Positions 18,410-64,000 of a stretch of DNA of 64,000 nt are shown here, one piece after another; position 1 is the first letter of the stretch; every line of letters starts with the position of its first letter. This DNA comes from Streptomyces sp. NBC_00286 (GTDB lineage Bacteria > Actinomycetota > Actinomycetes > Streptomycetales > Streptomycetaceae). The notes under the pieces were generated by a model. The model made no database searches and was not told the DNA's origin. It saw only the letters and a program-made list of their open reading frames with translations. Location: positions 5,728,501-5,792,500 of the forward strand of contig NZ_CP108054.1 of the NCBI RefSeq assembly GCF_036173125.1, given 5' to 3'. The translations under genes were made by a program, and so were the position numbers.

Positions 18410-20935
<2,526 letters not shown>

Positions 20936-21035: not shown

Positions 21036-21689
21036 TTACGACAGCTGGCCGTCGTAGTCCGGCAGCTTGAACGCCTTCTCCGCGTGGCCGCCGGAGAGAT
21101 CGGTGGGGGTGTTGCCTATGTTCGCGATGATCGTGTAGCCCTTGGCCTCGATCTCGGCGCGCTTGGCGGTCTTGTACTCGGCCTTGTCCCGGAAGAGATC
21201 GCCGAAGTTGCGGACGTAGAGGCCGGACACCTTGTAGCCACGGTGCTTGAGGTTGTAGTCGGTCACGGAGCCGATGATGTCCGGGCGCGCGGTCACGAAG
21301 AACAGGGCGACGCCGTGGTCCTGGGCGTACTTGGCGACTTCGAGGACGGGCGCGTTCGCCGGCGACGGGTAGCTGAAGCCGAAGTCGGTCTCCAGCGTGG
21401 TGTTGTCGATATCGAAGACGATCGCCTGCTTCTCGCCCGGCTTCGTGTTGGCGATCCGCTGCTTGAGGTACGGGAACGCCTCGTTCATGACCGCCTGGCA
21501 GTCCTTCTGCCAGGTGTCGTAGTCGACGTCCGCCGCGGCGGCGGCAGCAGTGGTGGTGGCAGCGGCTGGTGCCGCTGCGGGCGCCGCTGCCGGGCTCGCG
21601 GCGGCGACCGGGGTCACCAGGGCGGCGGTGACGGCCGTGGCGGCGGCGGTCACGCCGACGAGGCGTCGCTTCCAGCTTCTTCCTGTCAT
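21036..21689 (-). CDS. Secreted HAD-family acid phosphatase
   Basis: A 217-residue protein with an N-terminal signal sequence (basic WKRRLVG, hydrophobic Ala/Val run, about residues 1-35). A HAD phosphatase domain follows: motif I FDIDNTTLETDFG supplies the nucleophile Asp and acid Asp, motif II is FFVTARPD, and a C-terminal NIGNTPTDL holds the Mg-binding acid. It belongs to the class of bacterial and plant acid phosphatases exported from the cell. The ATG at 21689 has AGAGGAA ahead. The likely role is phosphate scavenging outside the cell. Confidence 0.88.
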   Translation of the reverse strand: MTGRSWKRRLVGVTAAATAVTAALVTPVAAASPAAAPAAAPAAATTTAAAAAADVDYDTWQKDCQAVMNEAFPYLKQRIANTKPGEKQAIVFDIDNTTLETDFGFSYPSPANAPVLEVAKYAQDHGVALFFVTARPDIIGSVTDYNLKHRGYKVSGLYVRNFGDLFRDKAEYKTAKRAEIEAKGYTIIANIGNTPTDLSGGHAEKAFKLPDYDGQLS

Positions 21690-21888
21690 GGGGGGTTCCT
21701 CTCGCGTCTGAGTCGCGTCGCGTCGAAGCATTGGGGGGCATTGCGGGTCGACCGACGTACATGGGCCGCGCTGCATCGTCACGGGCGTGTGAGGCCACAG
21801 GGAGGCGGTGGCATTACCGGCTGGTAACTGTAGGGTGCCGAAGAGGAGTTGGGCTAGATGTCGGCGCTCGGCTGCGCCGTGGGCAGGG

Positions 21889-24800
21889 CTACAGCACGCC
21901 GTGGTCTTGCCGGACGGTGTGTGTGCCGGGCAGGAGCGCGAGGATGTGCTCCGGGACTTCCGTCGCATCCCGGGCAAGGAGGAAGGAGACAGACTCCAAC
22001 CCTGGAAAGAAAGCCGGTACGGCCGAGAGGTCTTCGTTTCCGGTGAAATTGTTGAAGTGGAGGTGCCTAATGTCTGGCAGGACGGGCCCTTCGGTCCACG
22101 GGACCGCGGTCCAGTTGAGGCGCAATTCCGTCAGCTCCGGTAGCAGCGCGACCTCTTCGTAATCTTCGGGGGTGAGCGGTTGGAGGAGAAGGGCCAGGCT
22201 CAGCGTCTTCACTGAGTGCATATGACGCAGTCCGCGCAGTCCGGTGAACCTGAGGGCATTCTTGGTGAATCGCAGATACGTCAGCGGAAGCTCGGGGAGT
22301 GCGGCATCGAGGGAATCACCGTGGAGGGGAACGCCGGTGTAGAACTTGCGCAGGGTGGCCGAGGCTGAAAGTGCGGCGAGCGCCCCCGGCTTCTCCAGGC
22401 CCGCCATAACGTCCAACGACAGCCATTTCAGCGGCAGCTCGGCCAAGGGTGCCAGGTCGTCCACGTACGGATTGCTGCTGATGTTCAGATAGTCGAGCCT
22501 GTGCAGCGGCGAAACGAAGCTCAGGTCACGCAGCTTCTGGTTGGCCTGTAGAACGAGCTGGCGGGTTTCGTCCGGTACGAGCCAGGAACTCAGTTCCGCC
22601 GGCTCGATGTTCCCGACGACCTGCACTTGGGCGCGACCGCCGAGGGAATGCAGGGCGCGCAGTTGGGCGGTCGAGTGGACGACGAAGAAGAGCTCGTCCG
22701 GCAGCAGGTGGGCGATGACGTCGGACGCGTACTGCTCGGTGTCGAACCGTTTCCAAGCCCAGGAGAGTTGGGCGCGCACCGACAGGGACGTGTGCGTGCG
22801 GAAGCGGGCCAGGAACGGGACGGCCGCGTCCGTGCCGATGAGCGAGGCGGTGACCACCACCGCTCTGGCCTCCGCGTCGGACAGGCCCTCCGGACCGGGC
22901 AGCAGCTCCAGGACGAGCGGGCCCACCGCGGCCAGCTCCCGGGCTTCCTCCGTCGTACGTGGTGGGAGCAGCATGGCCGCCTGTTCCTCCACGTCGGCCC
23001 GGACCTGCGGGTCGAGTTCGGTGGCGTGTTCGAGGCAGGCGAGGGCGAGGATGCGGATGCGGGTGACCACGGGGCCCTCGACGTGATGAACGGACAAGAG
23101 CAAGTCGCGCAGGAACCCGGCCCGTTCACGAGGCCGTGCATGGGCCACCGCCATCCTGATCACGTCCGACCACTGGGAGTCGGACGCGTTGCGGACCAGG
23201 AGTCCGAAGTCGCCGTCCTCCACGGCCGCCTTCGCGCCGAGGTAGTCCTGGAAGGTGCGGTGGACGAACTCGACGGTGCCCAGGGCCGGTTCGCGCAGCA
23301 GTCCGCTGCGTATGAGGAGGTGGCGGTAGATCGCGGGGGCGTCGCCCTGGCTCGCCACGGCCGGCAGGGACGGGAGGGCGTCGGCGATGATGCGTTCGGC
23401 GCGTTCGCGGTCCATTTCCAGGCGGTTGTTGCGGATCAGCCAGTAGGCGAGGCGCTGGAGGAGCTGGATCTGGGGGAGTTCGGTGAGCTGGATGCCGTCG
23501 CGCGGATCCCGGGGCAGCATGTCGCGCTCCTGGTCGCGGCGTGCGAGGAGCATGGAGAGGGCGGCGTCGTACAACTCCTGCCGCCCGTGCGGGAGATAGC
23601 CGCGCCGGTCGCGGTGCAGGGCGCAGATCAGGCCGCACATCAGGGGGTTGGTGGCGAGTTTGCCCAGGTCCGGCTTGGTGCGTACGGCCTCCAGGAGCGA
23701 GGTCTCGTACGCGGTGAGGCGTTCCGGGTCGGGGGCGTCGATACGGGCCGCCGTATGCCAGCGTTCGATGAACGCGGCCACGTCCGTGCTGCTCATCGGC
23801 GCGAGGGCCAGTTCGGTGAAGCCGTCCGCGGCGAGCCAGTCCTCGCGTACGGCCGAGGGGCGCGAGGTGACCAGCCACTGGTTGCCCGGGTAGGCGTCGA
23901 GGAGGTCGCGCAGCCAGCGGCGGGTGCGCTCGCGGTCGGGCTCCGGGATCTCGTCGAGGCCGTCGACGAGCAGCAGCCCGCGACCCGCCGTGAGCACCCG
24001 GTCCGGCCAGCCGTTAGGTGCCGCGCCGTGGAGGGGAACGCGGGCGGCGGCCAGGAAGTCGGCGGGCGCGGGCAGTCCGTCGGCGCGGCGGACGAGCGTA
24101 CGCAGCGGCAGTACGAAGGGGACGCGGTCCTCGCGCTCACCCCGCGCCGCCGTCACGGCGAGCCACTGCACCAGCGTCGTCTTGCCTGAGCCCGCCACGC
24201 CGCGCAGCAGGACCAGGTCGTGGTCGGCGAAAGCCTCCTCGGCGGGGAGCGGGCTGCCGGTCGCGGCGATATAGCCGCCGCCCTCCGGCTCCTGGTCGTC
24301 GGTGGGGCGCAGGGCCTGGAGGGTGAGGTAGGCGGCGTCGAGGGGCCAGCGGTCGGGAGAATTGGCCAAGTCGATCCCGTAGATGGTGAGTTGACTGTGC
24401 CTGGTCGCTACGTACGAGAGGTAGCGGTGCTCGAAGGATGCGTCCGCACTGCCCGGGAGCGGGTTTCGGGCAATCAACTCGTCCATTTTCGCCAGGAGTT
24501 CGGCCTGGCGGCGGGTCTGCTCGACGAGGGTGCGGGGTACGAAGGCGGACCGTTGCGTGAAGAAGTGCAGGATGTGCAGGCAGGCCGTGTCGAGGAGCCG
24601 CTCGTAGAACAGCGCCGAGTCGAAGGCGAGGTCGCGATCGGGGTTCCCGGCGGCCTGGCGCAGGCGGAGGGCGAGGTCCGTGTGGCCGAGTTCCACGGCC
24701 TGTACGTCCGTCATGGTGAGGTCGCCGAGGGCGTGGAGGGTGCCGGCCAGGGCGTGGACCACGGCCTGTTCCTCGTCGGCGGGGAGAGGGCGCTCGCCGC

Positions 24801-25011
24801 TCTTCAACGCGCGTTTGACCAGCTCGGCGGCGACTTTGGTGACGTCCTTCTCGGTCAGGGACCGTTTCTCGCCGGCGAAGGAGACGTACGCCGAGATGCG
24901 TACGGGCTGGTCGACCAGGGCCGCTCCCGGGCCCTCCGTCACGAACAGTTTCCTGACGAGCGGGCTGATCACGCTCGACGCCAACCGGACGCCTACGGAC
25001 GCTGGTTCCAT
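21889..25011 (-). CDS. NACHT NTPase with leucine-rich repeats (bacterial NLR-like)
   Basis: A 1040-residue STAND protein. N-terminal helical domain (residues 1-215) ends in FEHRYLSYVATRHSQLTIYG, as in actinobacterial NACHT proteins. The NACHT ATPase has Walker A GVAGSGKTT (271-279) and Walker B LLLVDGLDE (346-354). A winged-helix and helical arm follow, and irregular leucine-rich repeats fill the last 170 residues (LDYLNISSNPYVDDLAPLAELP). This is the layout of animal NLRs; bacterial NACHT proteins of this class protect against phage. No TIR, nuclease or protease effector is visible. ATG at 25011 with GGGGAG ahead. It is a single-gene unit. Confidence 0.88.
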   Translation of the reverse strand: MEPASVGVRLASSVISPLVRKLFVTEGPGAALVDQPVRISAYVSFAGEKRSLTEKDVTKVAAELVKRALKSGERPLPADEEQAVVHALAGTLHALGDLTMTDVQAVELGHTDLALRLRQAAGNPDRDLAFDSALFYERLLDTACLHILHFFTQRSAFVPRTLVEQTRRQAELLAKMDELIARNPLPGSADASFEHRYLSYVATRHSQLTIYGIDLANSPDRWPLDAAYLTLQALRPTDDQEPEGGGYIAATGSPLPAEEAFADHDLVLLRGVAGSGKTTLVQWLAVTAARGEREDRVPFVLPLRTLVRRADGLPAPADFLAAARVPLHGAAPNGWPDRVLTAGRGLLLVDGLDEIPEPDRERTRRWLRDLLDAYPGNQWLVTSRPSAVREDWLAADGFTELALAPMSSTDVAAFIERWHTAARIDAPDPERLTAYETSLLEAVRTKPDLGKLATNPLMCGLICALHRDRRGYLPHGRQELYDAALSMLLARRDQERDMLPRDPRDGIQLTELPQIQLLQRLAYWLIRNNRLEMDRERAERIIADALPSLPAVASQGDAPAIYRHLLIRSGLLREPALGTVEFVHRTFQDYLGAKAAVEDGDFGLLVRNASDSQWSDVIRMAVAHARPRERAGFLRDLLLSVHHVEGPVVTRIRILALACLEHATELDPQVRADVEEQAAMLLPPRTTEEARELAAVGPLVLELLPGPEGLSDAEARAVVVTASLIGTDAAVPFLARFRTHTSLSVRAQLSWAWKRFDTEQYASDVIAHLLPDELFFVVHSTAQLRALHSLGGRAQVQVVGNIEPAELSSWLVPDETRQLVLQANQKLRDLSFVSPLHRLDYLNISSNPYVDDLAPLAELPLKWLSLDVMAGLEKPGALAALSASATLRKFYTGVPLHGDSLDAALPELPLTYLRFTKNALRFTGLRGLRHMHSVKTLSLALLLQPLTPEDYEEVALLPELTELRLNWTAVPWTEGPVLPDIRHLHFNNFTGNEDLSAVPAFFPGLESVSFLLARDATEVPEHILALLPGTHTVRQDHGVL

Positions 25012-25130: not shown

Positions 25131-26663
25131 ATGGGCGCCGACGAACCCGAAGTCCGTACGACAGCAGGGGTGTTGCGAGGGGAGCAAGAGGCGGGCCTTG
25201 CGGTGTTCCGCGGAATTCCCTTCGCTCAGCCGCCCGTCGGTGCGCTGCGATTCGGGGCGCCCCAGGCCGTGCGGGGCTGGGACGGCGTACGGAAGGCCGT
25301 GGCGTACGGGCCGCCGCCTCCGCAGGCCTCGGCGTTCGGGATGGACGCGCTGAACCAGGGCACGGGTGACGACTGGCTGACGCTCAACGTGTGGACGCCC
25401 GACCCGGGTTCGGGCGCCGGGCTGCCGGTGATGGTGTGGCTGTACGGGGGCGCGTACAGCATCGGGATGTCCAGTCTGCCCGAGTACGACGGCGGGCGGC
25501 TGGCGCGCCAGGGCGTGGTCGTCGTGACGCTCAACTACCGGGTGGGGATAGAGGGGTTCGGGCTCATCGAGGGGGCACCGGCCAATCGTGGGCTGCTCGA
25601 CCAGGTCGCCGCGCTGGAGTGGGTGCGCGAGAACATCCGGGCGTTCGGCGGCGATCCGGACCAGGTCACTGTGTTCGGCGAGTCGGCTGGGGCCGGGTCG
25701 GTGGCCGCGCTGCTGGCGATGCCGCGCGCGGCCGGGCTGTTCCGGCGGGCCGTCGCGCAGAGTGTGCCCGGTACGTTCTTCTCCGCCGAGCTCGCGGCTG
25801 ACTTCGCCCGCGCTTTCGCCGATGAGTTGGGTCTACGGCCGACCGCCGCCGACTTCGGCACGGTGGCGCCAAGTCGGCTGCCCGCGGCGGGAGATGCGGT
25901 GGGTGCTGCCATGCGTGGGTCCCTGAAGCGGTGGGGGGCGGTGGCGCATACGTCCGTCCCGCTCGCGCCGGTCGTCGACGGAGAGGTTCTGCCGGTCGAT
26001 CCGTGGCAGGCGCTTGCCTCCGGGGCCGGGCGGGAGATCGAACTCGTCGTCGGGCACACGCGAGACGAGTTCCGCCTCTTCATGGCGCTCGGCGGCATGC
26101 TCGGTGAGGTGACGGAGGAGCGGGCGGCCGTGGCGCTGGAGGTGTTCGCTCCCGGCAGGGAGGACGCGTACCGCGCCGCGTTCCCGGACGCCGGCCCCGA
26201 GGAGCTGTACGAACTCGTCAACTCCGACTGGCTGTTCCGTATGCCGTCGCTACGGCTGGCCGAGGCGCAGATCGGCGGAGGCGGTCGTGCGCACTTCTAC
26301 GAGCTGACATGGTCCGCTCCGGGTATGGGCGGAGGGCTGGGCGCCTGCCATGGGCTCGATGTGCCGCTGGTGTTCGGCACCTTGGACGGGGGGCTGCCCG
26401 CGATGCTGCTCGGCGAGACACCACCTCCGGAGGCGGAGGAGCTGTCCGCGCGCTTCCGCTCCGCGTGGACGGGGTTCGCGTCGGGCGACGGGCCCGGCTG
26501 GCCCGCGTATGACCTGGAACAGCGGCTCGTCCAGGTCTTCGACACGAGTCCGGCGGTGGCGGCGTATCCGGAGGAGGCGTCGCGGGAGATTTGGCGGGGG
26601 CATGTGTTCGGGGCGTTGCCCCTGGTGGGTCAGTCGCTTGGTGGGTCAGTCGCTGGTGGGTGA
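25131..26663 (+). CDS. Type B carboxylesterase
   Basis: A 510-residue alpha/beta hydrolase of the carboxylesterase/para-nitrobenzyl esterase family. The nucleophile Ser is in GESAGAGS, the oxyanion hole in LYGGAYSIG, and the His probably in ACHGLDVPL, with an acid in GHTRDEF. No signal peptide is seen, so it should be cytoplasmic. ATG at 25131 follows AGGGAG; GTG at 25128 is possible. It is divergent from the NLR gene. The 3' end shows a 15-16 bp tandem repeat (26623-26668) that encodes LVGQSLGGSVAGG, a sign of recent slippage. Confidence 0.88.
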   Translation: MGADEPEVRTTAGVLRGEQEAGLAVFRGIPFAQPPVGALRFGAPQAVRGWDGVRKAVAYGPPPPQASAFGMDALNQGTGDDWLTLNVWTPDPGSGAGLPVMVWLYGGAYSIGMSSLPEYDGGRLARQGVVVVTLNYRVGIEGFGLIEGAPANRGLLDQVAALEWVRENIRAFGGDPDQVTVFGESAGAGSVAALLAMPRAAGLFRRAVAQSVPGTFFSAELAADFARAFADELGLRPTAADFGTVAPSRLPAAGDAVGAAMRGSLKRWGAVAHTSVPLAPVVDGEVLPVDPWQALASGAGREIELVVGHTRDEFRLFMALGGMLGEVTEERAAVALEVFAPGREDAYRAAFPDAGPEELYELVNSDWLFRMPSLRLAEAQIGGGGRAHFYELTWSAPGMGGGLGACHGLDVPLVFGTLDGGLPAMLLGETPPPEAEELSARFRSAWTGFASGDGPGWPAYDLEQRLVQVFDTSPAVAAYPEEASREIWRGHVFGALPLVGQSLGGSVAGG

Positions 26664-27838: not shown

Positions 27839-28918
27839 TCATGACTGTACGGAGTCGATCGCGTCCTGGACGACGCGACTCAAGTCGTCTTCAGATGGGA
27901 CGAGTTCGCGCTCTCCTGGAGGGAGCGTTGAGTAGGACGTCGCGGCCAGAGGGCGGTTGCTGCCGTCCAGAGCGATCTGCACGGCGGCCTTGTCGTGGTC
28001 GGCTGCCACGAGGAACCCGATCGTCTTGTCGTCGAGTTTCGGATCGCGTACGAGCTGGTCGACCACACCCACGTAGAAGTTGAGCTTGCCGACGTGTTCG
28101 GGGCGGGCCTCTTTCGTCTTGAGTTCAAAGACGAAGTAGCGGCGTAGCTTGAGGTGGTAGAAGAGCAGGTCGATTCGGTATTCGTTGCTGCCGATGGTGA
28201 CCGGGTACTGGCGGCCGACGAAGGCGAAACCCACGCCGAGTTCGGTCAGGAAGCGGACCATGTTGGCCACGATTGCCTCTTCGAGTTCACGCTCGACGCG
28301 ATCCTTGTCGAGGCCCAGGAAGTCGAGGCGGTACGGGTCTCGGGCCAAGTCTTTGAGTGTCGCCGAGCCCTCTGGGACGGTCACCTCGAAGTTGGTGGCG
28401 GCTGAGCCCTGGGTGAGGTGCAGGTCCTGGTGGATGAAGCGGCTGAGGAGGTCTCGGGACCAGCCGTTGCGGACGGCTTCGGTGACGTAGAAGTCCAGTT
28501 CAGCCTGGGTGTCGAGCCTGTCCAGCATGAGCATGATGTGACCCCACGGCAATTGTGCAGCAGGCTGCTGCACAATTGGCTCCGGCCAGACGCGGGCCAT
28601 CTTGTGCATGTACATCAGGCTCCGGCGGGAGAAGCCGCGCTGGTTCGGGAAGGCCGTTTTCAGGTCCGCGGCGAGCCGGCCCACGACCTTGGTGCCCCAG
28701 CCCTCCTGCTCCTGACGGGCCAGGATGAGCTTGCCGATCTGCCAGTACATCTGGACCAGTTCGGTGTTCACGGCCCGCTGTGCGCGGAGGCGTGCGCCCG
28801 CGACGGTTTCCTTGACCTCACCCAAGAGGTCGCCGTACCAGGAGGGCAGGGTGCCCTGCTGAGCGGGGAGGCTGGGCTTGGCCTCGACGTTCTCGTGCAT
28901 GAGGTGAGGCTCGCGCAC
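27839..28918 (-). CDS. YhcG-family PDDEXK nuclease domain protein (DUF1016)
   Basis: A 359-residue protein. The N-terminal DUF1016_N half (about 25-165) contains YWQIGKLI and RRSLMYMHKMARVWPE. The C-terminal half is a PDDEXK nuclease fold, with the acidic/lysine core in NEYRIDLLFY...FVFELKTKEA (about 255-280). The family is typical of mobile DNA and restriction/defence loci in enterobacteria and actinobacteria; its substrate is not firmly known. The GTG at 28918 and the ATG at 28900 are both possible, with no clear ribosome site. A relic of a paralogue lies at its 3' end. Confidence 0.85.
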   Translation of the reverse strand: MREPHLMHENVEAKPSLPAQQGTLPSWYGDLLGEVKETVAGARLRAQRAVNTELVQMYWQIGKLILARQEQEGWGTKVVGRLAADLKTAFPNQRGFSRRSLMYMHKMARVWPEPIVQQPAAQLPWGHIMLMLDRLDTQAELDFYVTEAVRNGWSRDLLSRFIHQDLHLTQGSAATNFEVTVPEGSATLKDLARDPYRLDFLGLDKDRVERELEEAIVANMVRFLTELGVGFAFVGRQYPVTIGSNEYRIDLLFYHLKLRRYFVFELKTKEARPEHVGKLNFYVGVVDQLVRDPKLDDKTIGFLVAADHDKAAVQIALDGSNRPLAATSYSTLPPGERELVPSEDDLSRVVQDAIDSVQS

Positions 28919-29611: not shown

Positions 29612-29720
29612 GATGGGTGCTTTGTGGGACATCGGCATCACGGGTTACCAAGGGACGCCTCGCCCGGCGCATCGACAGCGCGTCGGGTGTGTTCATGCCC
29701 GTCACCCGGAGGTAGTCCCC

Positions 29721-30335
29721 ATGTCGCTGCGCATCACCAAGTCCCACGTTCTCGGTACGTCCCCGCTCCGTGCCCGGGCGGCTGTCCTGGCCGCCGGGCT
29801 GGGGGTGTCGGTCGCGCTGGGGACCGGGGTCGCGGTCGCCGCCGGTGGTGCGGCGAGCGCTGAGGCGGTGCCGGCTGCTGCTGCTCAGAAGGCCGCCGTC
29901 AAGAAGGCGGCGAAGCCGTCCTGGGTCGACCCGGTCAAGAAGTACAAGCTCTCCGCCAGCTACGCCCAGGCCGGCAACATGTGGAACTCCACCCACTCCG
30001 GCCAGGACTTCGCCGTCCCCTCCGGCTCCAAGGTCTTCGCCACGCATGGCGGCACCGTCGTCAAGGCGGGCGGCAACGGCGCCGGTGACGGGCCCGCGTA
30101 CGGCAACGCCGTCGTCATCAAGCACGGCAACGGGACCTACTCCCAGTACGCCCACCTGTCGCGTGTCCAGGTGAAGGCCGGCCAGATCGTCGGCACCGGT
30201 CAGCAGATCGCGCTCTCCGGCAACACCGGCAACTCCAGCGGTCCGCACCTGCACTTCGAGATCCGTACGTCCCCCAACTACGGCTCCGCGATAGACCCCG
30301 TACGCTTCCTGCGCACCAAGGGCGTAACCCTCTAA
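29721..30335 (+). CDS. Secreted M23-family metallopeptidase
   Basis: A 204-residue exported protein: signal sequence (residues 1-45, LRARAAVLAAGLGVSVALGT), a short Ala/Lys linker, and an LytM/M23 domain. The zinc ligands are in HSGQDFAVPSG (HxxxD) and HLHFE (HxH), and the catalytic His in YSQYAHLS. Such enzymes cut peptidoglycan cross-bridges. ATG at 29721 with CCGGAGG ahead. There is no cell-wall binding domain. It converges on the TetR gene with only 16 bases between. Confidence 0.92.
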   Translation: MSLRITKSHVLGTSPLRARAAVLAAGLGVSVALGTGVAVAAGGAASAEAVPAAAAQKAAVKKAAKPSWVDPVKKYKLSASYAQAGNMWNSTHSGQDFAVPSGSKVFATHGGTVVKAGGNGAGDGPAYGNAVVIKHGNGTYSQYAHLSRVQVKAGQIVGTGQQIALSGNTGNSSGPHLHFEIRTSPNYGSAIDPVRFLRTKGVTL

Positions 30336-30351: not shown

Positions 30352-30930
30352 TCAGGTCCCTTCAGCTTCGTGGGTCCGGGTGATCAGCTCGGTGGCGACC
30401 TCCAGGACGGCCTTGCGCTTCTCCTCGGGGTCGCCTTCGAGGTCCCTGAGGGTGAACAGTCCGGCGTGGATGGAGAACAGGGCGGTGACGCAGCGGACCT
30501 GGTCGGTCATCGTGGCGTCCGGCTCTCTGAGCAGGTCCACCATGCGGAGCATGCGTTCCTTGAAGTCCTCGCCGGAGCGCAGTTCGCGTACGGCCGCCTG
30601 GTTCTCCTGCATGAAACGGAAGAGCGGGGCCGCTTCGGTGAGGGCCTCGCTGTAGCGGTTGAGGATCTCGCGCTTCGTCTCGAGGGTGCGCGGCTGCTGC
30701 TTGCCCCACTCGATCAGCTCGTCCATCGGCTTCGTCAGGTCCTGGAAGAGGCTGATCAGGATGTCTTCCTTGGACTTGAAGTGGTAGTAGAGCGCCGCCT
30801 TCGTGACGTTCAGCCGCTCCGCGATCTCGCGCAGGGACGTCTTCTCGTAGCCCTGCTCGGCGAAGAGTTCGAGGGCCACGTCCTGGATGCGCTGGCGGGT
30901 GTGTCCGCGTTGCTGCCTGCTGGCGCCCAT
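30352..30930 (-). CDS. TetR-family regulator of the adjacent MFS pump
   Basis: A 192-residue repressor. The N-terminal HTH is textbook (RIQDVALELFAEQGYEKTSL, then LNVTKAALYYHFKSKEDIL); the C-terminal two thirds is the ligand and dimer domain. It is divergent from the MFS gene, with two related operator sites between. Loss of binding on ligand should derepress both genes, as in other TetR/MFS pairs. The ligand is not known. A short CTGAA/TTCAG hairpin lies at its 3' end. Confidence 0.9.
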   Translation of the reverse strand: MGASRQQRGHTRQRIQDVALELFAEQGYEKTSLREIAERLNVTKAALYYHFKSKEDILISLFQDLTKPMDELIEWGKQQPRTLETKREILNRYSEALTEAAPLFRFMQENQAAVRELRSGEDFKERMLRMVDLLREPDATMTDQVRCVTALFSIHAGLFTLRDLEGDPEEKRKAVLEVATELITRTHEAEGT

Positions 30931-31038: not shown

Positions 31039-32658
<1,620 letters not shown>

Positions 32659-57657: not shown

Positions 57658-58191
57658 GTGAGCGCAGAGAACGGCACCCCGGACACCACCACCGCGGGCT
57701 CCCAGGGTTTCCCGGGGCCCACGGCTGACACCGGCCCCCGCCCCGAACCCATCCGCTTCTTCGGCACGACCTGGCTGAACCACGACGACGGCTACGCCGC
57801 CCGCCGCATCGCCGCAGCCACCGGCTCGCTGGCCATCGCTGCCGCTGCCTGCCTGATCCTTCGCTTCGCCTACGAAGGTCTGCGGATCGCCGAGACCGGC
57901 GGCTTCGTCACGCTCCTCATGATCGTGATGTTCACGATCTGCAGCGCGCTGGCCTTCCGCCACACCTGGGGCAGCTACACCCGCCGCCCCGACCCCGAAC
58001 GCCAGGCCTCCCTACGCGGCCTCCTGGCCATCGGCTTCATCGGCTCCCTCCTCGCCTACTTCTTCCGCTCCCTCATAGAGGCCCCCGGCGAAAAACTCCA
58101 CCGCGAGGAATACGAGACGGCCCGCAAGCAACACGAGAAACGCGTCACCCGCCGCACGGGCAACCCATCGAAGAAGCGCCGCCGTTCTTAG
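57658..58191 (+). CDS. Integral membrane protein of unknown function
   Basis: A 177-residue protein with a Pro/Thr-rich N-terminus, three hydrophobic helices (about 52-70, 81-102, 120-142) and a strongly basic C-terminus (KRVTRRTGNPSKKRRRS). GTG start at 57658. No domain is recognised; similar proteins are sometimes labelled EamA-like, but it is far too short for that 10-TM family. Confidence 0.78.
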   Translation: MSAENGTPDTTTAGSQGFPGPTADTGPRPEPIRFFGTTWLNHDDGYAARRIAAATGSLAIAAAACLILRFAYEGLRIAETGGFVTLLMIVMFTICSALAFRHTWGSYTRRPDPERQASLRGLLAIGFIGSLLAYFFRSLIEAPGEKLHREEYETARKQHEKRVTRRTGNPSKKRRRS

Positions 58192-58777
58192 CGAGCTGCC
58201 TGGCGGAGCGGTACCGCGCCCCTCCAGGGGCGCGCGGCTGCGACTACCCGCGCCCCATAGGGGCGCGGGGAACTGCGCGACCAGCCACGACGGACCCGCA
58301 GCTCCTCACTGCATTTCCAGCGGAGCGCTGTCACCGCCACCTACCGTTCCTGGGGACTGAGCAGGAGTAAGTCCGCTCAGCCGCACGCCCCGAACGGTCT
58401 TGGGCGCTCCCCCAGACTCCGTCCGGGGGGACCCCCAGGTCCCCGGCGTACTCAACCCCGGGGTGGCGACACGCATCCTGTCCGTGGTCCGGGCTCGGGA
58501 GGCCGGATCCCTCACGACCTGGCCATTTGGGTGCGGCCAGAGGCGACGGGGAGGCCCCGAACCATCACTCCGGTGGAGCGGGGGCCCCGCACTCCCCCAG
58601 CTACCGCTGGGGGTGCCCCCAGGCGCCGTACCCGGCGTCCCAGATCGCACGATCACCGTAGCCCGAACAGCCCACAACGCCGCAACCTCGGAAGGCCGAC
58701 CATCACACGATCGAGCTAAACCGCCCTCGTTCACGCTCCCCGGTGAGCAGTTGGCAACCCCCTGCCACCATGGCCAT
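58192..58777. repeat. 586-bp repeat-rich gap
   Basis: Holds GGGGCGCGGGGAACTGCGCG with GACCAGCCACGACGG (about 58261-58297), CTCCCCCAGACTCCGTCCGG plus GGGGACCCCCAGG (about 58407-58440), and CTCCCCCAGCTACCGCTGGG plus GGTGCCCCCAGG (about 58590-58622). The last two families recur at 17.9 and 32.7-33.0 kb. An upstream extension of the methyltransferase frame runs through here but is low complexity and not coding. Confidence 0.8.
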
Positions 58778-59587
58778 ATGTCCACGACGCCCCCACCACA
58801 GCCCTCCGCCCTCCACGCCGCCCGAGCCCACTCCTTCAATGCCGCCGCGGCCCAGTACGCCGCCAACCGCCCCTCCTACCCGCCCGCCCTCTTCGACGCG
58901 ATCGAAGACCTGGCCGGTCACCCCCTCGCTGGCTCCCGCGTCGCGGACATCGGCGCCGGTACGGGCATAGCGACCGCACTGCTCCACGCCCGCGGCGCAG
59001 ACGTCGTCGCCGTAGAGCCCGGCGACGGCATGGCGGCCCAGTTCCGCCGTTCCCTCCCCGACGTCCCCATCCTGCGGGGCGACGGCAACTCCCTCCCCCT
59101 GGCCACTGCCTCCACCGACTTCCTCACCTACGCCCAGTCCTGGCACTGGACCGATCCGGCCCGCTCGGTGCCGGAGGCATTCCGTGTCCTGCGCCCAGGC
59201 GGCTCGCTCGCTCTGTGGTGGAACACCAGCGCCCTGAAACTCCCGTGGATCGCCGAGCAGGCCAACCGCATCGAGCGCCACCTCGGCACCGCCCGCGAGG
59301 TGGACCGAAACGGCAACGGCCCCGAAGTCAGTGCCGCGCTCGCCGACCCCACCGGCCGCCTCGACTTCACCCGCCGTACGATCCGCTGGAGCCGCCACGT
59401 CCCCGTCGACACTCACCTCGCGAACATCGGCAGCCACTCGATCTTCCTCGTCAATGGCGAAGAACGCACCGCAGCCTTCCTCGCCGAGGAACGCCAGCAC
59501 CTGCTCAAGGCCTTCCCAAACGGCACCGTCGAGGAGGTCTACGACGTAATCCTCCTGCTGGCCACCAACCCAACCACCAGCTCCTGA
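58778..59587 (+). CDS. Class I SAM-dependent methyltransferase
   Basis: A 269-residue methyltransferase. Motif I VADIGAGTGIATALL near residue 53, motif II VVAVEPGDG, motif III in AFRVLRPGGSLALWW, and SWHWTDP, typical of the group resembling yeast Tmt1/Crg1-like and UbiE-related enzymes. The ATG at 58778 gives MSTTPPPQPSALH. The substrate is unknown, and no partner genes are adjacent. Confidence 0.87.
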   Translation: MSTTPPPQPSALHAARAHSFNAAAAQYAANRPSYPPALFDAIEDLAGHPLAGSRVADIGAGTGIATALLHARGADVVAVEPGDGMAAQFRRSLPDVPILRGDGNSLPLATASTDFLTYAQSWHWTDPARSVPEAFRVLRPGGSLALWWNTSALKLPWIAEQANRIERHLGTAREVDRNGNGPEVSAALADPTGRLDFTRRTIRWSRHVPVDTHLANIGSHSIFLVNGEERTAAFLAEERQHLLKAFPNGTVEEVYDVILLLATNPTTSS

Positions 59588-60095
59588 CCCCACCCGACAT
59601 CCCCGCCCGGAACCCCTCCACACGGCACCCGGCACCCAAGGACCCGCCGACGATCGAGACCGGCGGTGAGCGGCAACTGCCGGTTAACTCGCGATCCGCC
59701 TGCCCACCCGCTCCTCGCCTCGCGCCATGTCCACCCGAGCCCCCCGCGCTCCGCCTGCCCTCACGCCCACCCGGGCTCATCGAGCTCCGCCTCCCGCCAC
59801 GCCCACCGGGCCGCCGCGCCCCGCCTCCCCTCACGCCCACGGGACCCTCGCGCCCACGCGCGCTCTTATGCATACCCGGGCGTCGTGCCCACCCGGGCGT
59901 CGTGCCCACCCGGGCGTCGTGCCCACCCGGGCCTCACACCCACGCGAGCCCTTACCCACGGGGGCATCGCACGCACAGGCGCGCCCTCACCCACGGGGGC
60001 ATCACACCCACACGCGCGCCCTCACCCCGACACGCCCCCATGCCACAGCACCCCTCCCCTTGACGCACCCAGCCCCCGCGAGGATTATTCATCAC
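59588..60095. repeat. 508-bp low-complexity and tandem-repeat region
   Basis: Three exact 17-bp units CCGGGCGTCGTGCCCAC at 59876-59926 plus a degenerate fourth (59927-59943). CCACCCGGGC, CACGCGCGCCCT and CCACGGGGGCAT variants surround them (about 59720-60055). Long frames through it encode only Ala/Pro/His/Arg repeats and are not credible genes. Confidence 0.8.
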
Positions 60096-60104
60096 ATGAT
60101 GAAT
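60087..60104. promoter_or_regulatory. 18-bp palindrome over the ABC gene start
   Basis: ATTCATCA, CA, TGATGAAT: perfect 8-bp arms. It contains the start codon(s) at 60096/60099 and a -10-like TATTCA at 60086-60091, which fits a leaderless transcript controlled by a repressor that covers the start. Confidence 0.6.
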
Positions 60105-60932
60105 TACGCGTCCAGGCCACCCAATGAGGGAGCACCCCGCCCCGACGAGACACCCGGCGCACCAGGCACCCCCGCCGTCCGCGCCGAAGGCCTCACCGTC
60201 GTCCGCGGCCCCCGCACGGTCCTGCGCGGTCTCGACTTCACCGTCCCGCGCGGCCAGGTCACCGGTCTCCTCGGTCCCTCCGGCTGCGGCAAGTCGACCC
60301 TGATGCGCGCGATCGTCGGCACCCAGGCCAAGGTCACCGGCACCCTCGACGTCCTCGACCGCCCCGCCGGCCACCCCACCCTCCGCACCCGCATCGGCTA
60401 CGTCACCCAAGCCCCCTCCGTCTACGACGACCTGACGATCCGCCAGAACCTCGACTACTTCGCCGCGATCCTGGACCCCGGCCGCGGCTCCGCCGAGCGA
60501 CGGCACGAGAACGTCACCCGCGCCATCGCCGACGTCGACCTCACCAGCCACGCCGACGCCCTGGCCGGCAACCTCTCCGGCGGCCAGCGCAGCCGCGTCT
60601 CCCTGGCTGTGGCCCTCCTCGGCACCCCCGAGCTCCTGGTCCTCGACGAACCCACGGTCGGCCTGGACCCCGTACTCCGCCGTGACCTGTGGAACCTCTT
60701 CCACGCCATCGCCGCAGAACGCGGCGCCACCCTCCTGATCTCCTCCCACGTCATGGACGAGGCCGAGCGCTGCCACCGCCTCCTCCTCATGCGCGAGGGC
60801 GAGATCCTCGCCGACGACACCCCCGACGCCCTGCGCCACCGCACCGACTCCGAGACAGTCGAGGCAGCCTTCTTGCACCTGGTCGACGAGGCGGTCGCGG
60901 CGAGCCGCAAGAAGGAGACGACGACGCGATGA
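60096..60932 (+). CDS. ABC transporter ATP-binding protein
   Basis: A 278-residue ATPase of the DrrA/CcmA type. Walker A GPSGCGKST, signature LSGGQRSR, Walker B LLVLDEPTVGLD and the switch His in ISSHVMDEAERC. ATG at 60096 or 60099 (both in frame) with no ribosome site, inside an 18-bp palindrome: probably leaderless. It overlaps the permease start by four bases. Confidence 0.93.
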   Translation: MMNYASRPPNEGAPRPDETPGAPGTPAVRAEGLTVVRGPRTVLRGLDFTVPRGQVTGLLGPSGCGKSTLMRAIVGTQAKVTGTLDVLDRPAGHPTLRTRIGYVTQAPSVYDDLTIRQNLDYFAAILDPGRGSAERRHENVTRAIADVDLTSHADALAGNLSGGQRSRVSLAVALLGTPELLVLDEPTVGLDPVLRRDLWNLFHAIAAERGATLLISSHVMDEAERCHRLLLMREGEILADDTPDALRHRTDSETVEAAFLHLVDEAVAASRKKETTTR

Positions 60933-61726
60933 GCACGACCACGAGTACGAGTACGCCCACGACCATGGCGCCCGCCCCGACGAGCGCGCTGAACGCTTCC
61001 CGCACCACCGCCACCGCGGCCCGGGTCCTGCGCCAACTCCGCCACGACCCGCGCACCATCGCGCTGATGATCCTCATCCCGTGCGTGATGCTGTTCCTGC
61101 TGCGCTACGTCTTCGACGGCAGCCAACGCACCTTCGACAACATCGGCGCCTCCCTCCTCGGCATCTTCCCGCTGATCACGATGTTCCTGGTGACGTCCAT
61201 CGCCACCCTCCGCGAACGCACCTCCGGCACCCTGGAACGCCTCCTCGCCATGCCCCTCGGCAAGGCCGACCTCATCGCGGGCTACGCCCTCGCCTTCGGC
61301 GCCCTCGCCATCGTCCAGTCCGCCCTCGCCACCGGTCTCGCCGTCTGGGCCCTGGGTCTCGACGTCACGGGCTCGGCCTGGCTCCTCCTGCTCGTCGCTC
61401 TCCTCGACGCTCTCCTGGGCACGGCCCTCGGTCTCTTCGTCTCGGCCTTCGCCTCCTCGGAGTTCCAGGCCGTGCAGTTCATGCCGGCGGTGATCTTCCC
61501 CCAGCTCCTCCTCTGCGGCCTGTTCACTCCCCGTCCCAACATGCACCCCGTCCTCGAAGGCATCTCCAACGTCCTCCCCATGTCGTACGCAGTCGACGGC
61601 ATGAACGAAGTCCTCCTGCACACCGACGTCACCGCCGACTTCATCCGAGACGTACTGATCGTCGCCGCCTGTGCCCTCCTGGTCCTCACCCTCGGCGCCG
61701 CAACCCTTCGCCGCCGCACCGCCTGA
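60929..61726 (+). CDS. ABC-2 type transporter permease
   Basis: A 265-residue integral membrane protein with six helices, ABC2_membrane family. The intracellular EAA-like segment is in LRERTSGTLERLLAMPLGKADLI, and FTPRPNMHPVLEGISNVLPMSYAVDGM matches the drug-export subfamily. Thr/Ser-rich N-terminus (MSTTTSTSTPTT). With the ATPase it forms a homodimeric exporter of drugs or lipids; the substrate is unknown. Confidence 0.92.
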   Translation: MSTTTSTSTPTTMAPAPTSALNASRTTATAARVLRQLRHDPRTIALMILIPCVMLFLLRYVFDGSQRTFDNIGASLLGIFPLITMFLVTSIATLRERTSGTLERLLAMPLGKADLIAGYALAFGALAIVQSALATGLAVWALGLDVTGSAWLLLLVALLDALLGTALGLFVSAFASSEFQAVQFMPAVIFPQLLLCGLFTPRPNMHPVLEGISNVLPMSYAVDGMNEVLLHTDVTADFIRDVLIVAACALLVLTLGAATLRRRTA

Positions 61727-61845
61727 CGCCCCAGCTCAGGGTCGCCATCCATCCCGCCCAGCGGACAACGGCGACCCACCCCGCGACCCCGGTGCGAGGA
61801 TGGGCCCTGGACGACGCACCACCCCCGCCCGGAGGGCAACCGAAC

Positions 61846-62658
61846 ATGACCCAGAAAGTCGCAGTGCTCGGCACCGGCAAGATCGGCGAAGCCCTGCTCA
61901 GCGGAATGATCCGAGCCGGCTGGTCCCCCGCCGACCTCCTGGTCACCGCACGCCGCACGGAGCGAGCCGAAGAACTCCGCACGCGCTACGGCGTCACCCC
62001 GGTGACCAACCCCGAGGCAGCCAAGACCGCCGACACCCTGATCCTCACGGTCAAGCCTCAAGACATGGGCACCCTCCTCGTCGAACTGGCCCCACACGTC
62101 CCCGCCGACCGCCTCGTCATAAGCGGTGCGGCAGGCATCCCCACCTCCTTCTTCGAGGAGCGCCTCGCCCAAGGCACCCCCGTCGTCCGTGTCATGACGA
62201 ACACCCCCGCCCTCGTCGACGAGGCCATGTCCGTCATCTCCGCCGGCAGCCACGCCACCGCCGAGCACCTCGCCCACGCCGAGGAGATCTTCGGCGCCGT
62301 AGGCAAGACGCTCCGCGTCCCCGAGTCCCAACAGGACGCCTGCACCGCCCTCTCCGGCTCAGGACCGGCGTACTTCTTCTACCTGGTAGAGGCCATGACC
62401 GACGCGGGCATCCTCCTCGGCCTGCCCCGCGAAAAAGCACACGACCTCATCGTCCAGTCCGCGATCGGCGCCGCCGTCATGCTCCGCGACAGCGGCGAAC
62501 ACCCCGTGAAACTCCGCGAGAACGTCACATCCCCCGCGGGCACCACGATCAACGCCATCCGCGAACTGGAGAACCACGGCGTACGAGCCGCCCTCATCGC
62601 CGCAATCGAGGCAGCCCGCGACCGCGGCCGCGAACTGGCCTCCGGCAGCAACACCTGA
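61846..62658 (+). CDS. proC: Pyrroline-5-carboxylate reductase
   Basis: A 270-residue enzyme that reduces P5C to proline with NAD(P)H. N-terminal Rossmann motif AVLGTGKIGEALLSG, MTNTPALV, and the C-terminal family signature ALSGSGPAYFFYLVEAM plus VTSPAGTTINAI. ATG at 61846 with GGAGGG ahead. The gene is convergent with trpS, separated by a strong hairpin. Confidence 0.95.
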   Translation: MTQKVAVLGTGKIGEALLSGMIRAGWSPADLLVTARRTERAEELRTRYGVTPVTNPEAAKTADTLILTVKPQDMGTLLVELAPHVPADRLVISGAAGIPTSFFEERLAQGTPVVRVMTNTPALVDEAMSVISAGSHATAEHLAHAEEIFGAVGKTLRVPESQQDACTALSGSGPAYFFYLVEAMTDAGILLGLPREKAHDLIVQSAIGAAVMLRDSGEHPVKLRENVTSPAGTTINAIRELENHGVRAALIAAIEAARDRGRELASGSNT

Positions 62659-62669
62659 CGCCCACCCCC

Positions 62670-62710
62670 GGCGCCGGGCCTGGACCCCGCCCGTCCAGAC
62701 ACCCGGCGCC
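62670..62710. terminator. Bidirectional terminator between proC and trpS
   Basis: Stem GGCGCCGGG (62670-62678) with CCCGGCGCC (62702-62710), and an inner TGGAC/GTCCA pair. Confidence 0.8.
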
Positions 62711-62730
62711 AGGTCGGACCAACTCAGCCG

Positions 62731-63729
62731 TCACGCCGGCGAAAGCAACCCGATCGCCCGGTACGCCGCGTCCACCGTCGGCCGCGCCATCTCTCTGGCC
62801 TTCTCCGCACCATCCCGCAACACCCCCTCCACATACGCAGGATCCGCGCACAGCTCGCTGTGCCTCTCCTGTACGGGCCTGAGGAGCTCGACCACAGCCT
62901 CGGCGGTGTCCTTCTTCAAAGATCCGTACGACTCATATACACCGGCCAGGCCCTCGGGGTTCCCACTTTCACAGGCCGCGAGGATCTCCAGAAGATTCGA
63001 GACCCCCGGTCGTCCCTCCGGGTCGTACACGACATCCCGCCCGCTGTCGGTCACCGCCCGCATGATCTTCTTCCGGATCACCTCCGGCTCATCGAGCAGA
63101 TACACGATCCCCGGCCCGACATCCTCGGACTTCCCCATCTTCGACGTCGGCTCCTGAAGGTTCATCACCCGCGTCGCCACCGCCGGATGCGTGGCCCGAG
63201 GCACCACGAACGTATGCCCGTACCGCTGGTTGAACCGCACCGCCAGATCCCGCGCCAGCTCCACATGCTGCGTCTGGTCGTCCCCGACCGGCACCTCAGC
63301 CGTCCCATACGCCAGGATGTCCGCCGCCATCAGCACCGGATACGTCAGCAGCGACAGCCGTACGCTCCCACCCCGCCTCCGCTCCCGCGCGGCCTTCTCC
63401 TTGTACTGGATCATCCGCCGCATCTCGCCGTCCGAAGCCACGCACTCCAGCAGATACGACAGCCGCGCATGCTCATCCACATGACTCTGTACGAACACGG
63501 TGCACAGCTTGGGATCAAGCCCCGAGGCCAGCAACAGCGTGGCCGCCTGCCGACTGAGCCTGCGCACCCGACCTGGATCGTGATCCACGGTCAGCGCATG
63601 CAGGTCGACGACACAGAACAGTGCGTCGGCGCAGTGCTGATCGACATCGGCCCAACGCCGTACGGCCCCCAGGTAGTTCCCCAGCGTCAGATGCCCCGTC
63701 GGCTTGACCCCGCTGAAGATCCGCGTCAT
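62731..63729 (-). CDS. trpS: Tryptophanyl-tRNA synthetase, attenuator-controlled type
   Basis: A 332-residue class I synthetase that charges tRNA-Trp. HIGH-like motif in PTGHLTLGNYLG, GDDQTQHVELARD, and a KMSKS variant SKMGKS. In S. coelicolor the gene in this position (SCO3334) encodes an auxiliary, indolmycin-resistant TrpRS controlled by ribosome-mediated attenuation. The leader here has the same plan: a short peptide with two Trp codons and alternative hairpins (63795-63887). Resistance of this protein is inferred from position and leader only. ATG at 63729 with GGGAGG ahead. Confidence 0.93.
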   Translation of the reverse strand: MTRIFSGVKPTGHLTLGNYLGAVRRWADVDQHCADALFCVVDLHALTVDHDPGRVRRLSRQAATLLLASGLDPKLCTVFVQSHVDEHARLSYLLECVASDGEMRRMIQYKEKAARERRRGGSVRLSLLTYPVLMAADILAYGTAEVPVGDDQTQHVELARDLAVRFNQRYGHTFVVPRATHPAVATRVMNLQEPTSKMGKSEDVGPGIVYLLDEPEVIRKKIMRAVTDSGRDVVYDPEGRPGVSNLLEILAACESGNPEGLAGVYESYGSLKKDTAEAVVELLRPVQERHSELCADPAYVEGVLRDGAEKAREMARPTVDAAYRAIGLLSPA

Positions 63730-63794
63730 CTCTCTACCTCCCGGTCAGGACCACCGCTGCCCGCCGGCCGGGCTCTCCAGGAGGGAGAAACAAG

Positions 63795-63819
63795 AACGGC
63801 CGCCGAGGCGGCGGCCGTT
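63795..63819 (-). terminator. Attenuator terminator hairpin of trpS
   Basis: On the minus strand AACGGCCGCCG, CCT, CGGCGGCCGTT: an 11-bp stem followed by TCTTGTTTCT. Its 5' arm can instead pair with the leader segment GGCGGCCG at 63837-63844 (antiterminator). Confidence 0.85.
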
Positions 63820-63837
63820 GAGTACATACGTGAACTC

Positions 63838-63855
63838 GGCCGCCCTCAGGCGGCC
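63838..63855 (-). promoter_or_regulatory. Leader (protector/pause) hairpin of trpS
   Basis: GGCCGCC, TGAG, GGCGGCC on the minus strand, overlapping the leader stop codon and the second Trp codon. A ribosome stalled on the Trp codons would block this hairpin and free the 3' arm for the antiterminator. Confidence 0.75.
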
Positions 63856-63887
63856 CACCACAGCTGGGTGCACGCATGCGTTGTCAT
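63846..63887 (-). CDS. trpS leader peptide with tandem Trp codons
   Basis: Thirteen codons, MTTHACTQLWWAA, then TGA. The two adjacent TGG codons (63855-63860) sit just before the hairpin set. GGGAGGGG lies about 13 bases ahead of the ATG. This is the classic leader for Trp-sensing attenuation of the downstream synthetase gene. Too short for usual gene callers. Confidence 0.85.
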   Translation of the reverse strand: MTTHACTQLWWAA

Positions 63888-63928
63888 ACGTCCGAGAGTA
63901 CCCCTCCCGGGTGCTCTACGGCGCCGAG

Positions 63929-63957
63929 TTGACACGCCCGAACCCGCTCCGTACTGT
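63929..63957 (+). promoter_or_regulatory. Consensus-like promoter facing right
   Basis: TTGACA (63929-63934), 17-base spacer, TACTGT (63952-63957). It would start transcription near 63964 and drive a gene beyond the window; it is divergent from the trpS leader. Confidence 0.6.
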
Positions 63958-63974
63958 TCTCCGAGTTGTCCGAC

Positions 63975-64000
63975 GTGAGCGCCGACTCCGGTCGGTCCCC
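63975..64000 (+). CDS. Possible start of a gene running off the window
   Basis: GTG at 63975 opens VSADSGRSP to the window end, 18 bases after the TACTGT box. No ribosome site is seen. Only nine codons are visible, so the call is weak. Confidence 0.3.

Follow-up and report, generated by a model that had tools for sequence, protein, structure and literature searches.

An NNH1-NACHT-LRR gene of NLR layout in a fixed slot downstream of clpC in Streptomyces

The window, a stretch of 64,000 nucleotides from Streptomyces sp. NBC_00286, contains a gene that joins an N-terminal NNH1 domain, a NACHT domain with intact NTPase motifs and C-terminal leucine-rich repeats (LRRs). The gene occupies a fixed slot beside clpC, in which it is largely inherited in place and from which it has been lost in some species. 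NNH1-NACHT-LRR is an already known architecture, of which the window gene is a further member; what the present analysis adds to the Pfam family NNH1 is the fixed slot and the exchange of NNH1 with TIR, trypsin and HTH domains on homologous cores. We favour, with moderate confidence, the reading that the gene encodes a bacterial conflict switch of NLR type in which NNH1 provides the output, and for which intracellular immunity would be the likeliest use.

Domain layout, predicted structure and constraint

The gene is a single unbroken frame with its ATG at 25011, preceded by GGGGGAG, and its stop at 21891-21889 (Table 1). An earlier sequence-only reading had placed here, at 21889..25011, a stand-alone gene of NLR layout with a helical N-terminus, intact Walker A and B motifs and C-terminal LRRs. 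Pfam, motif reading and AlphaFold2 supported this layout, and the coordinates were right, on the minus strand. The NNH1 domain scored 196 bits against a curated Pfam cut-off of 27 bits and belongs to PF22733. As in NACHT-clade STAND NTPases, the protein matched the NACHT profile and had both Walker motifs intact, and the NTPase motifs were invariant in the aligned rows. FVHRTFQDYL, which we take to be the FxHxSFQE-like winged-helix histidine motif of NACHT and animal NLR proteins, includes H584, invariant across 22 aligned rows. N-terminal domain, NACHT and LRR lie on one chain in the NLR order, in which NNH1 would stand as the output domain. The layout is not a chance arrangement, since 27 distinct related loci were found in GTDB genomes. 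NCBIfam and PADLOC profile searches of the window protein gave no meaningful match, and a Pfam scan found no DNA-binding profile in it.

Table 1 Features of the NACHT gene and its surroundings, in positions of the window
Feature	Position	Strand	Basis or remark
clpC, conserved slot edge	18410..20935	+	Pfam/synteny
HAD acid phosphatase, start uncertain	21036..21857	-	seen in part of both the occupied and the empty slots
NNH1-NACHT-LRR gene, 1040 aa	21889..25011	-	translation, Pfam, start region
About 10 leucine-rich repeats, residues 793-1035	21907..22635	-	AlphaFold2 pLDDT mostly >90; weak LRR_4
All-helical region, residues 601-775	22687..23211	-	AlphaFold2 secondary structure
NLR winged-helix-like motif FVHRTFQDYL, residues 582-591, with H584	23239..23268	-	alignment
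NACHT domain, residues 266-421	23749..24216	-	PF05729 E 1.4e-30
Walker B LLLVDGLDE, residues 346-354	23950..23976	-	motif reading
Walker A GVAGSGKT, residues 271-278	24178..24201	-	motif reading
NNH1 domain, residues 7-181	24469..24993	-	PF22733 E 7e-58
Carboxylesterase, divergent neighbour, start uncertain	25134..26663	+	part of relatives only
YhcG-type PD-(D/E)XK nuclease (DUF1016_N + YhcG_C)	27839-28918	-	Pfam
M23-like peptidase gene, other slot edge in most genomes	29613..30335	+	synteny
TetR gene, beyond M23-like gene	30352-30930		Pfam
MFS gene, beyond TetR	31060-32658		named from sequence

AlphaFold2, given an alignment (A2) of 22 rows comprising the window protein and 21 of the 27 related loci, returned a mean pLDDT of 71. 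Values were mostly >80 from residue ~590 onward and mostly >90 in the LRR, only ~38-83 in the NACHT region, and mostly <50 at residues 1-51 and 151-279. The model contained ~10 strand units at residues 793-1035, on the strength of which we regard the predicted LRR region as real despite a marginal LRR_4 match under the Pfam cut-off (E 3.5e-4). In Foldseek searches of the PDB, human NLRP14 came top (E 1.2e-10), followed by mouse oocyte lattice chains, NLRP7 and plant resistosomes, all at low TM-scores (~0.2). Because the non-NLR LRR proteins LRRK2, LRRC8A and internalin also matched below E 1e-3 and TM-scores were low, the repeats drive much of the NLRP14 match. What the result supports, chiefly via the repeats, is the predicted layout and not a structure that could be superposed. 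The same order of N-terminal domain, NACHT, helical region and LRR is seen in animal NLRs, NLRP14 among them, at ~15% identity and a low TM-score for NLRP14, and this likeness may stem from independent assembly of modules. Structure prediction of the N-terminal domain, proposed as a check in the sequence-only reading, yielded a model of moderate quality (pLDDT 64), with which a fold search gave no clear match.

Mean pairwise identity among the window protein and 20 of its 27 orthologues was highest in NACHT and residues 426-600 (0.83 each), followed by NNH1 (0.74), residues 601-780 (0.73), residues 191-262 (0.66) and the LRR (0.52). Relative to the loci L001 and L002, dN/dS was 0.16-0.18 in NNH1, 0.19-0.22 in NACHT and 0.31-0.38 in the LRR; over four comparisons with the window gene the LRR ranged from 0.31 to 0.41, always <1. 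By these estimates the LRR evolves faster than NACHT yet is under constraint. Positions on the predicted concave face of the LRR were no more variable than other polar positions (mean identity 0.436 vs 0.458). With dN/dS <1 and no hypervariability at concave positions, there is no arms-race signature, and the comparisons disfavour strong interspecies arms-race evolution of the LRR surface.

The slot downstream of clpC

The window gene lies just downstream of clpC and antiparallel to it. We take the gene at the other slot edge, from its sequence, to encode an M23-like peptidase, and the gene beyond TetR is presumably MFS. Of the 27 related loci, taken from named Streptomyces genomes, 25 had clpC near the NACHT gene; at the other two (L003, L017) the stretch analysed ends close to the NACHT gene. 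A clpC search matched 149 of 150 genus genomes, downstream DNA was taken from 80 of the 149 (G000, G002-G080), and removal of two stretches that were too short (L141, L146) left 78 informative Streptomyces genomes. A NACHT gene antiparallel to clpC was present in the slot in 41 of these and absent in 37; in three of the 37 (L105, L115, L118) the M23 edge was not recognised either, and these may have undergone rearrangement or be truncated. Strict core-genome presence, named beforehand as an observation that would count against a defence role, was therefore not what we found. Remnants of slot-type genes, at most ~1.5 kb from clpC, remained in 4/37 empty slots (L073, L084, L120, L135), so loss has occurred. 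Three loci (L075, L079, L132) carried two NACHT copies.

The 44 slot proteins fell into two classes. For class A (31/44) the alignment with the window protein began close to its N-terminus and the layout was NNH1-NACHT-LRR, while alignments of class B (13/44) began only at ~residue 186 or later. A trypsin-like N-terminus was present in 12 of the 13 class B proteins by a profile built here from three of them, and each of the five class B proteins submitted to Pfam matched Trypsin_2 or Trypsin; the thirteenth (L125) appears broken. Upstream of two class B genes, Pfam identified Trypco2 in small ORFs (E 8.7e-28 and 2.6e-25). With these two as queries, tblastn found Trypco2-like sequence at 13/13 class B loci, 1/28 loci with class A alone and 1/37 empty loci. 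The empty locus (L073) is one that bears trypsin-class remnants. At the class A locus (L079, 14534-14782, beside clpC), where both NACHT genes are of NNH1 type, the sequence may be left over from a class B gene since lost. Trypco2 is described in PMC7159879 as a neighbour of trypsin-like effectors in conflict systems, which the class B trypsin-NACHT-LRR genes with Trypco2 match. The window gene differs in having NNH1 and not trypsin, and tblastn found no Trypco2 at its locus. Class A and class B cores separated on the core tree, so the slot is occupied by two lineages, and we do not claim that one domain simply replaced the other within the slot.

Distances between NACHT cores, with one copy per locus, were compared with those of a flanking gene. 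The correlation was r 0.71 in class A (26 loci) and r 0.89 in class B (12 loci), each with P 0.0005, the smallest value that 2000 permutations allow; three other neighbour genes gave r 0.37-0.53 in class A and 0.75-0.92 in class B. That NACHT divergence tracks flanking-gene divergence argues for inheritance in place, mostly vertical, and the sequences thus describe a long-lived slot whose gene is largely vertically inherited. The nearest relative by flanking gene shared the slot state in 38/68 loci, compared with 23 in shuffles (highest of 200, 39).

These results changed the view of the surroundings. What the sequence-only reading had called an accessory-like stretch is a fixed clpC slot, rather than the changing, mobile surroundings, shared with further defence genes, that mark a defence island. 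The YhcG nuclease, which it had noted nearby, matched PADLOC candidate class PDC-S02 (E 1.4e-117) and proved an incidental neighbour: it occurred in 3/27 related loci, where flank lengths vary, and in 2/80 slot loci including the window's own. The HAD acid phosphatase accompanies some of the occupied and some of the empty slots and is therefore not a specific partner.

More widely, 192 of 295 genus genomes matched the window protein at E 1e-100, paralogues counted in. Relatives on plasmids comprised 26 records at E 1e-20, of which 13 were from Streptomyces and four covered at least 80% of the query, and phage sequences gave two weak matches. The genome of the window held two more NACHT-profile matches (G000:C1:5403683-5404120, L059; 9019056-9019361, L060), one over the Pfam cut-off and both far weaker than the window gene. 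Two or three family members lay near one another, apparently in tandem, at loci in G246, G594, G605 and G655. At the far end of the window (58000-64000) GC skew was sustained at ~-0.22 to -0.27, unlike the remaining window. A literature search found no paper on a clpC-downstream slot in Streptomyces, which does not prove that none exists.

The absence of the gene from nearly half of the surveyed species, together with the remnants in empty slots, is what one would expect of a decaying or neutral relic retained by chance near clpC. We consider this very improbable for the window gene: its frame is intact, the NTPase motifs are invariant, and dN/dS of 0.16-0.22 in NNH1 and NACHT relative to L001 and L002 points to purifying selection.

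Exchange of N-terminal modules on homologous cores

Off-slot relatives had the same NACHT core, ~43-58% identical, with TIR, HTH or trypsin in NNH1's place. Trypsin_2 was found on the core relatives L168, L170, L171, L220 and L227, with a score just under the cut-off in L170 and clearly under it in L233. HTH_31 was found on L179, L218, L223, L226 and the plasmid-borne L236 (L236:3788-6742; 51% identity over residues 165-850), and the HTH siblings' cores were 53-57% identical to the window protein. These HTH-NACHT proteins are possible NTP-switched DNA-binding proteins. One protein (L232:1-2817, minus) carried TIR_2 (E 2.8e-12) on a core 47% identical, a layout that resembles plant TIR-NLRs. 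L169 and L180 had divergent NNH1 domains, and L183 and the distant L188 had no assigned N-terminal domain. At least 38 matches, counted by eye, started at query residues 168-193, near the NNH1 end, and this clustering indicates a module boundary that recurs.

We placed the domain labels on a quick core tree of 83 rows, leaving aside two domain-less rows, and counted six changes against a minimum of four for five labels. A single clade of NNH1 proteins was rejected (AU p 3.9e-5; 45 rows vs 36) on this quick tree, in which the distant NNH1 rows L177 and L187 sit on a long branch. Our own NNH1 profile missed both, and NNH1 was recognised by Pfam in L187 and by the genome search at both places. 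The TIR row and the two distant NNH1 rows had long branches and unsure positions. For trypsin a single origin was compatible with the data (AU p 0.37), and we make no claim of repeated gains. The eight HTH rows formed one side of a branch with SH-aLRT 99.9.

With TIR, trypsin and HTH in its place on sibling cores, NNH1 is taken as an output module, and is probably that of the switch. The sequence-only reading had suggested that the helical N-terminus may be a new effector or an adaptor-binding part; the position fits an effector or adaptor, since other modules replace it, and the novelty fell away, since NNH1 is a named Pfam family. For NNH1 (PF22733) we found no activity assignment, and the Pfam entry gives its name.

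Because HTH siblings share the core, the main rival is a STAND-type regulator, in which an internal signal would control transcription or development rather than defence. Besides these siblings, whose eight rows stand together on the tree, vertical inheritance beside clpC and purifying selection on the LRR would suit such a role. The window protein itself matched no DNA-binding profile, the slot gene is missing in 37/78 species, and other siblings carry TIR and trypsin domains, and we regard a regulator as unlikely.

NNH1 could instead be a homotypic adaptor that recruits separate NNH1-bearing effectors, as Death-like or EAD domains do. A helical domain is found where EAD or Death-like adaptors lie in the systems described in PMC8195603 and PMC7159879, and five weak, partial, sub-cut-off NNH1 matches lay in frames of 242-565 aa. 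Profile searches of 31 and 296 genomes point the other way: 25 of 30 distinct hits over the cut-off, counted by frame length alone, were in frames 800 aa long or longer, and the other five were partial or broken, two of these being pieces from a single place, which leaves no clearly intact separate NNH1 protein among the hits. Nor did the seven of 31 class A genes inspected have a recurrent co-directed small gene upstream, by an inspection whose composition filter hid several class B Trypco2 genes (the tblastn count was unfiltered); at L079 the upstream gene is a tandem NACHT copy. The frame-length survey disfavours recruitment of NNH1-bearing effectors, and we think an adaptor of this kind quite unlikely.

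Proposed function and relation to known systems

NACHT proteins usually rest with ADP bound and, on a trigger, exchange it for ATP and oligomerise. By analogy, the conflict switch that we favour would hold ADP in its NACHT domain at rest, with the C-terminal helical region and LRRs keeping the protein closed. Once the repeats sensed a trigger, the protein would open and ATP would bind, subunits would oligomerise via NACHT, and the clustered NNH1 domains would give the output, which may be growth arrest, cell death or recruitment. Its likeliest use would be intracellular immunity, against phage or another invader, in a mycelial bacterium. Several observations weigh against this reading: defence islands are not typically passed on vertically between core genes, and the core can serve regulation too, as its HTH-bearing siblings show. 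The lack of an arms-race signature in the LRR, of a meaningful PADLOC or NCBIfam match and of a clear fold match for the moderate NNH1 model counts on the same side, as do the five weak NNH1 matches in shorter frames.

Among the closest likenesses are the Pfam families NNH1 (PF22733) and NACHT (PF05729), with the same N-terminal domain and NACHT and a full-length profile match. The antiphage bNACHT proteins have the central NACHT in common with the window protein. According to PMC12169576, clade 14 bNACHTs have no readily discernible effector, and four bNACHTs described there have SNaCT C-termini or an NCH1 plus nuclease N-terminus, whereas the window protein has a long LRR and NNH1. The same source predicts that a change of a NACHT histidine, H506L in bNACHT25, destabilises the OFF state; H584 of the window protein may be its equivalent.

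We tentatively extend the conflict-switch reading to NNH1 as an intrinsic effector switched by NACHT oligomerisation, and to the slot as a genus-wide NLR locus in which output classes, NNH1 or protease, are kept, tandem-duplicated or lost. Under this extension the slot could be likened to plant NLR loci, with their birth and death of classes. The occurrence of TIR and protease domains in its stead on homologous cores places NNH1 in the output position, where its function is directly testable by domain swap. If true, an immune-type locus that a mycelial bacterium inherits vertically would be unlike the usual mobile defence island.
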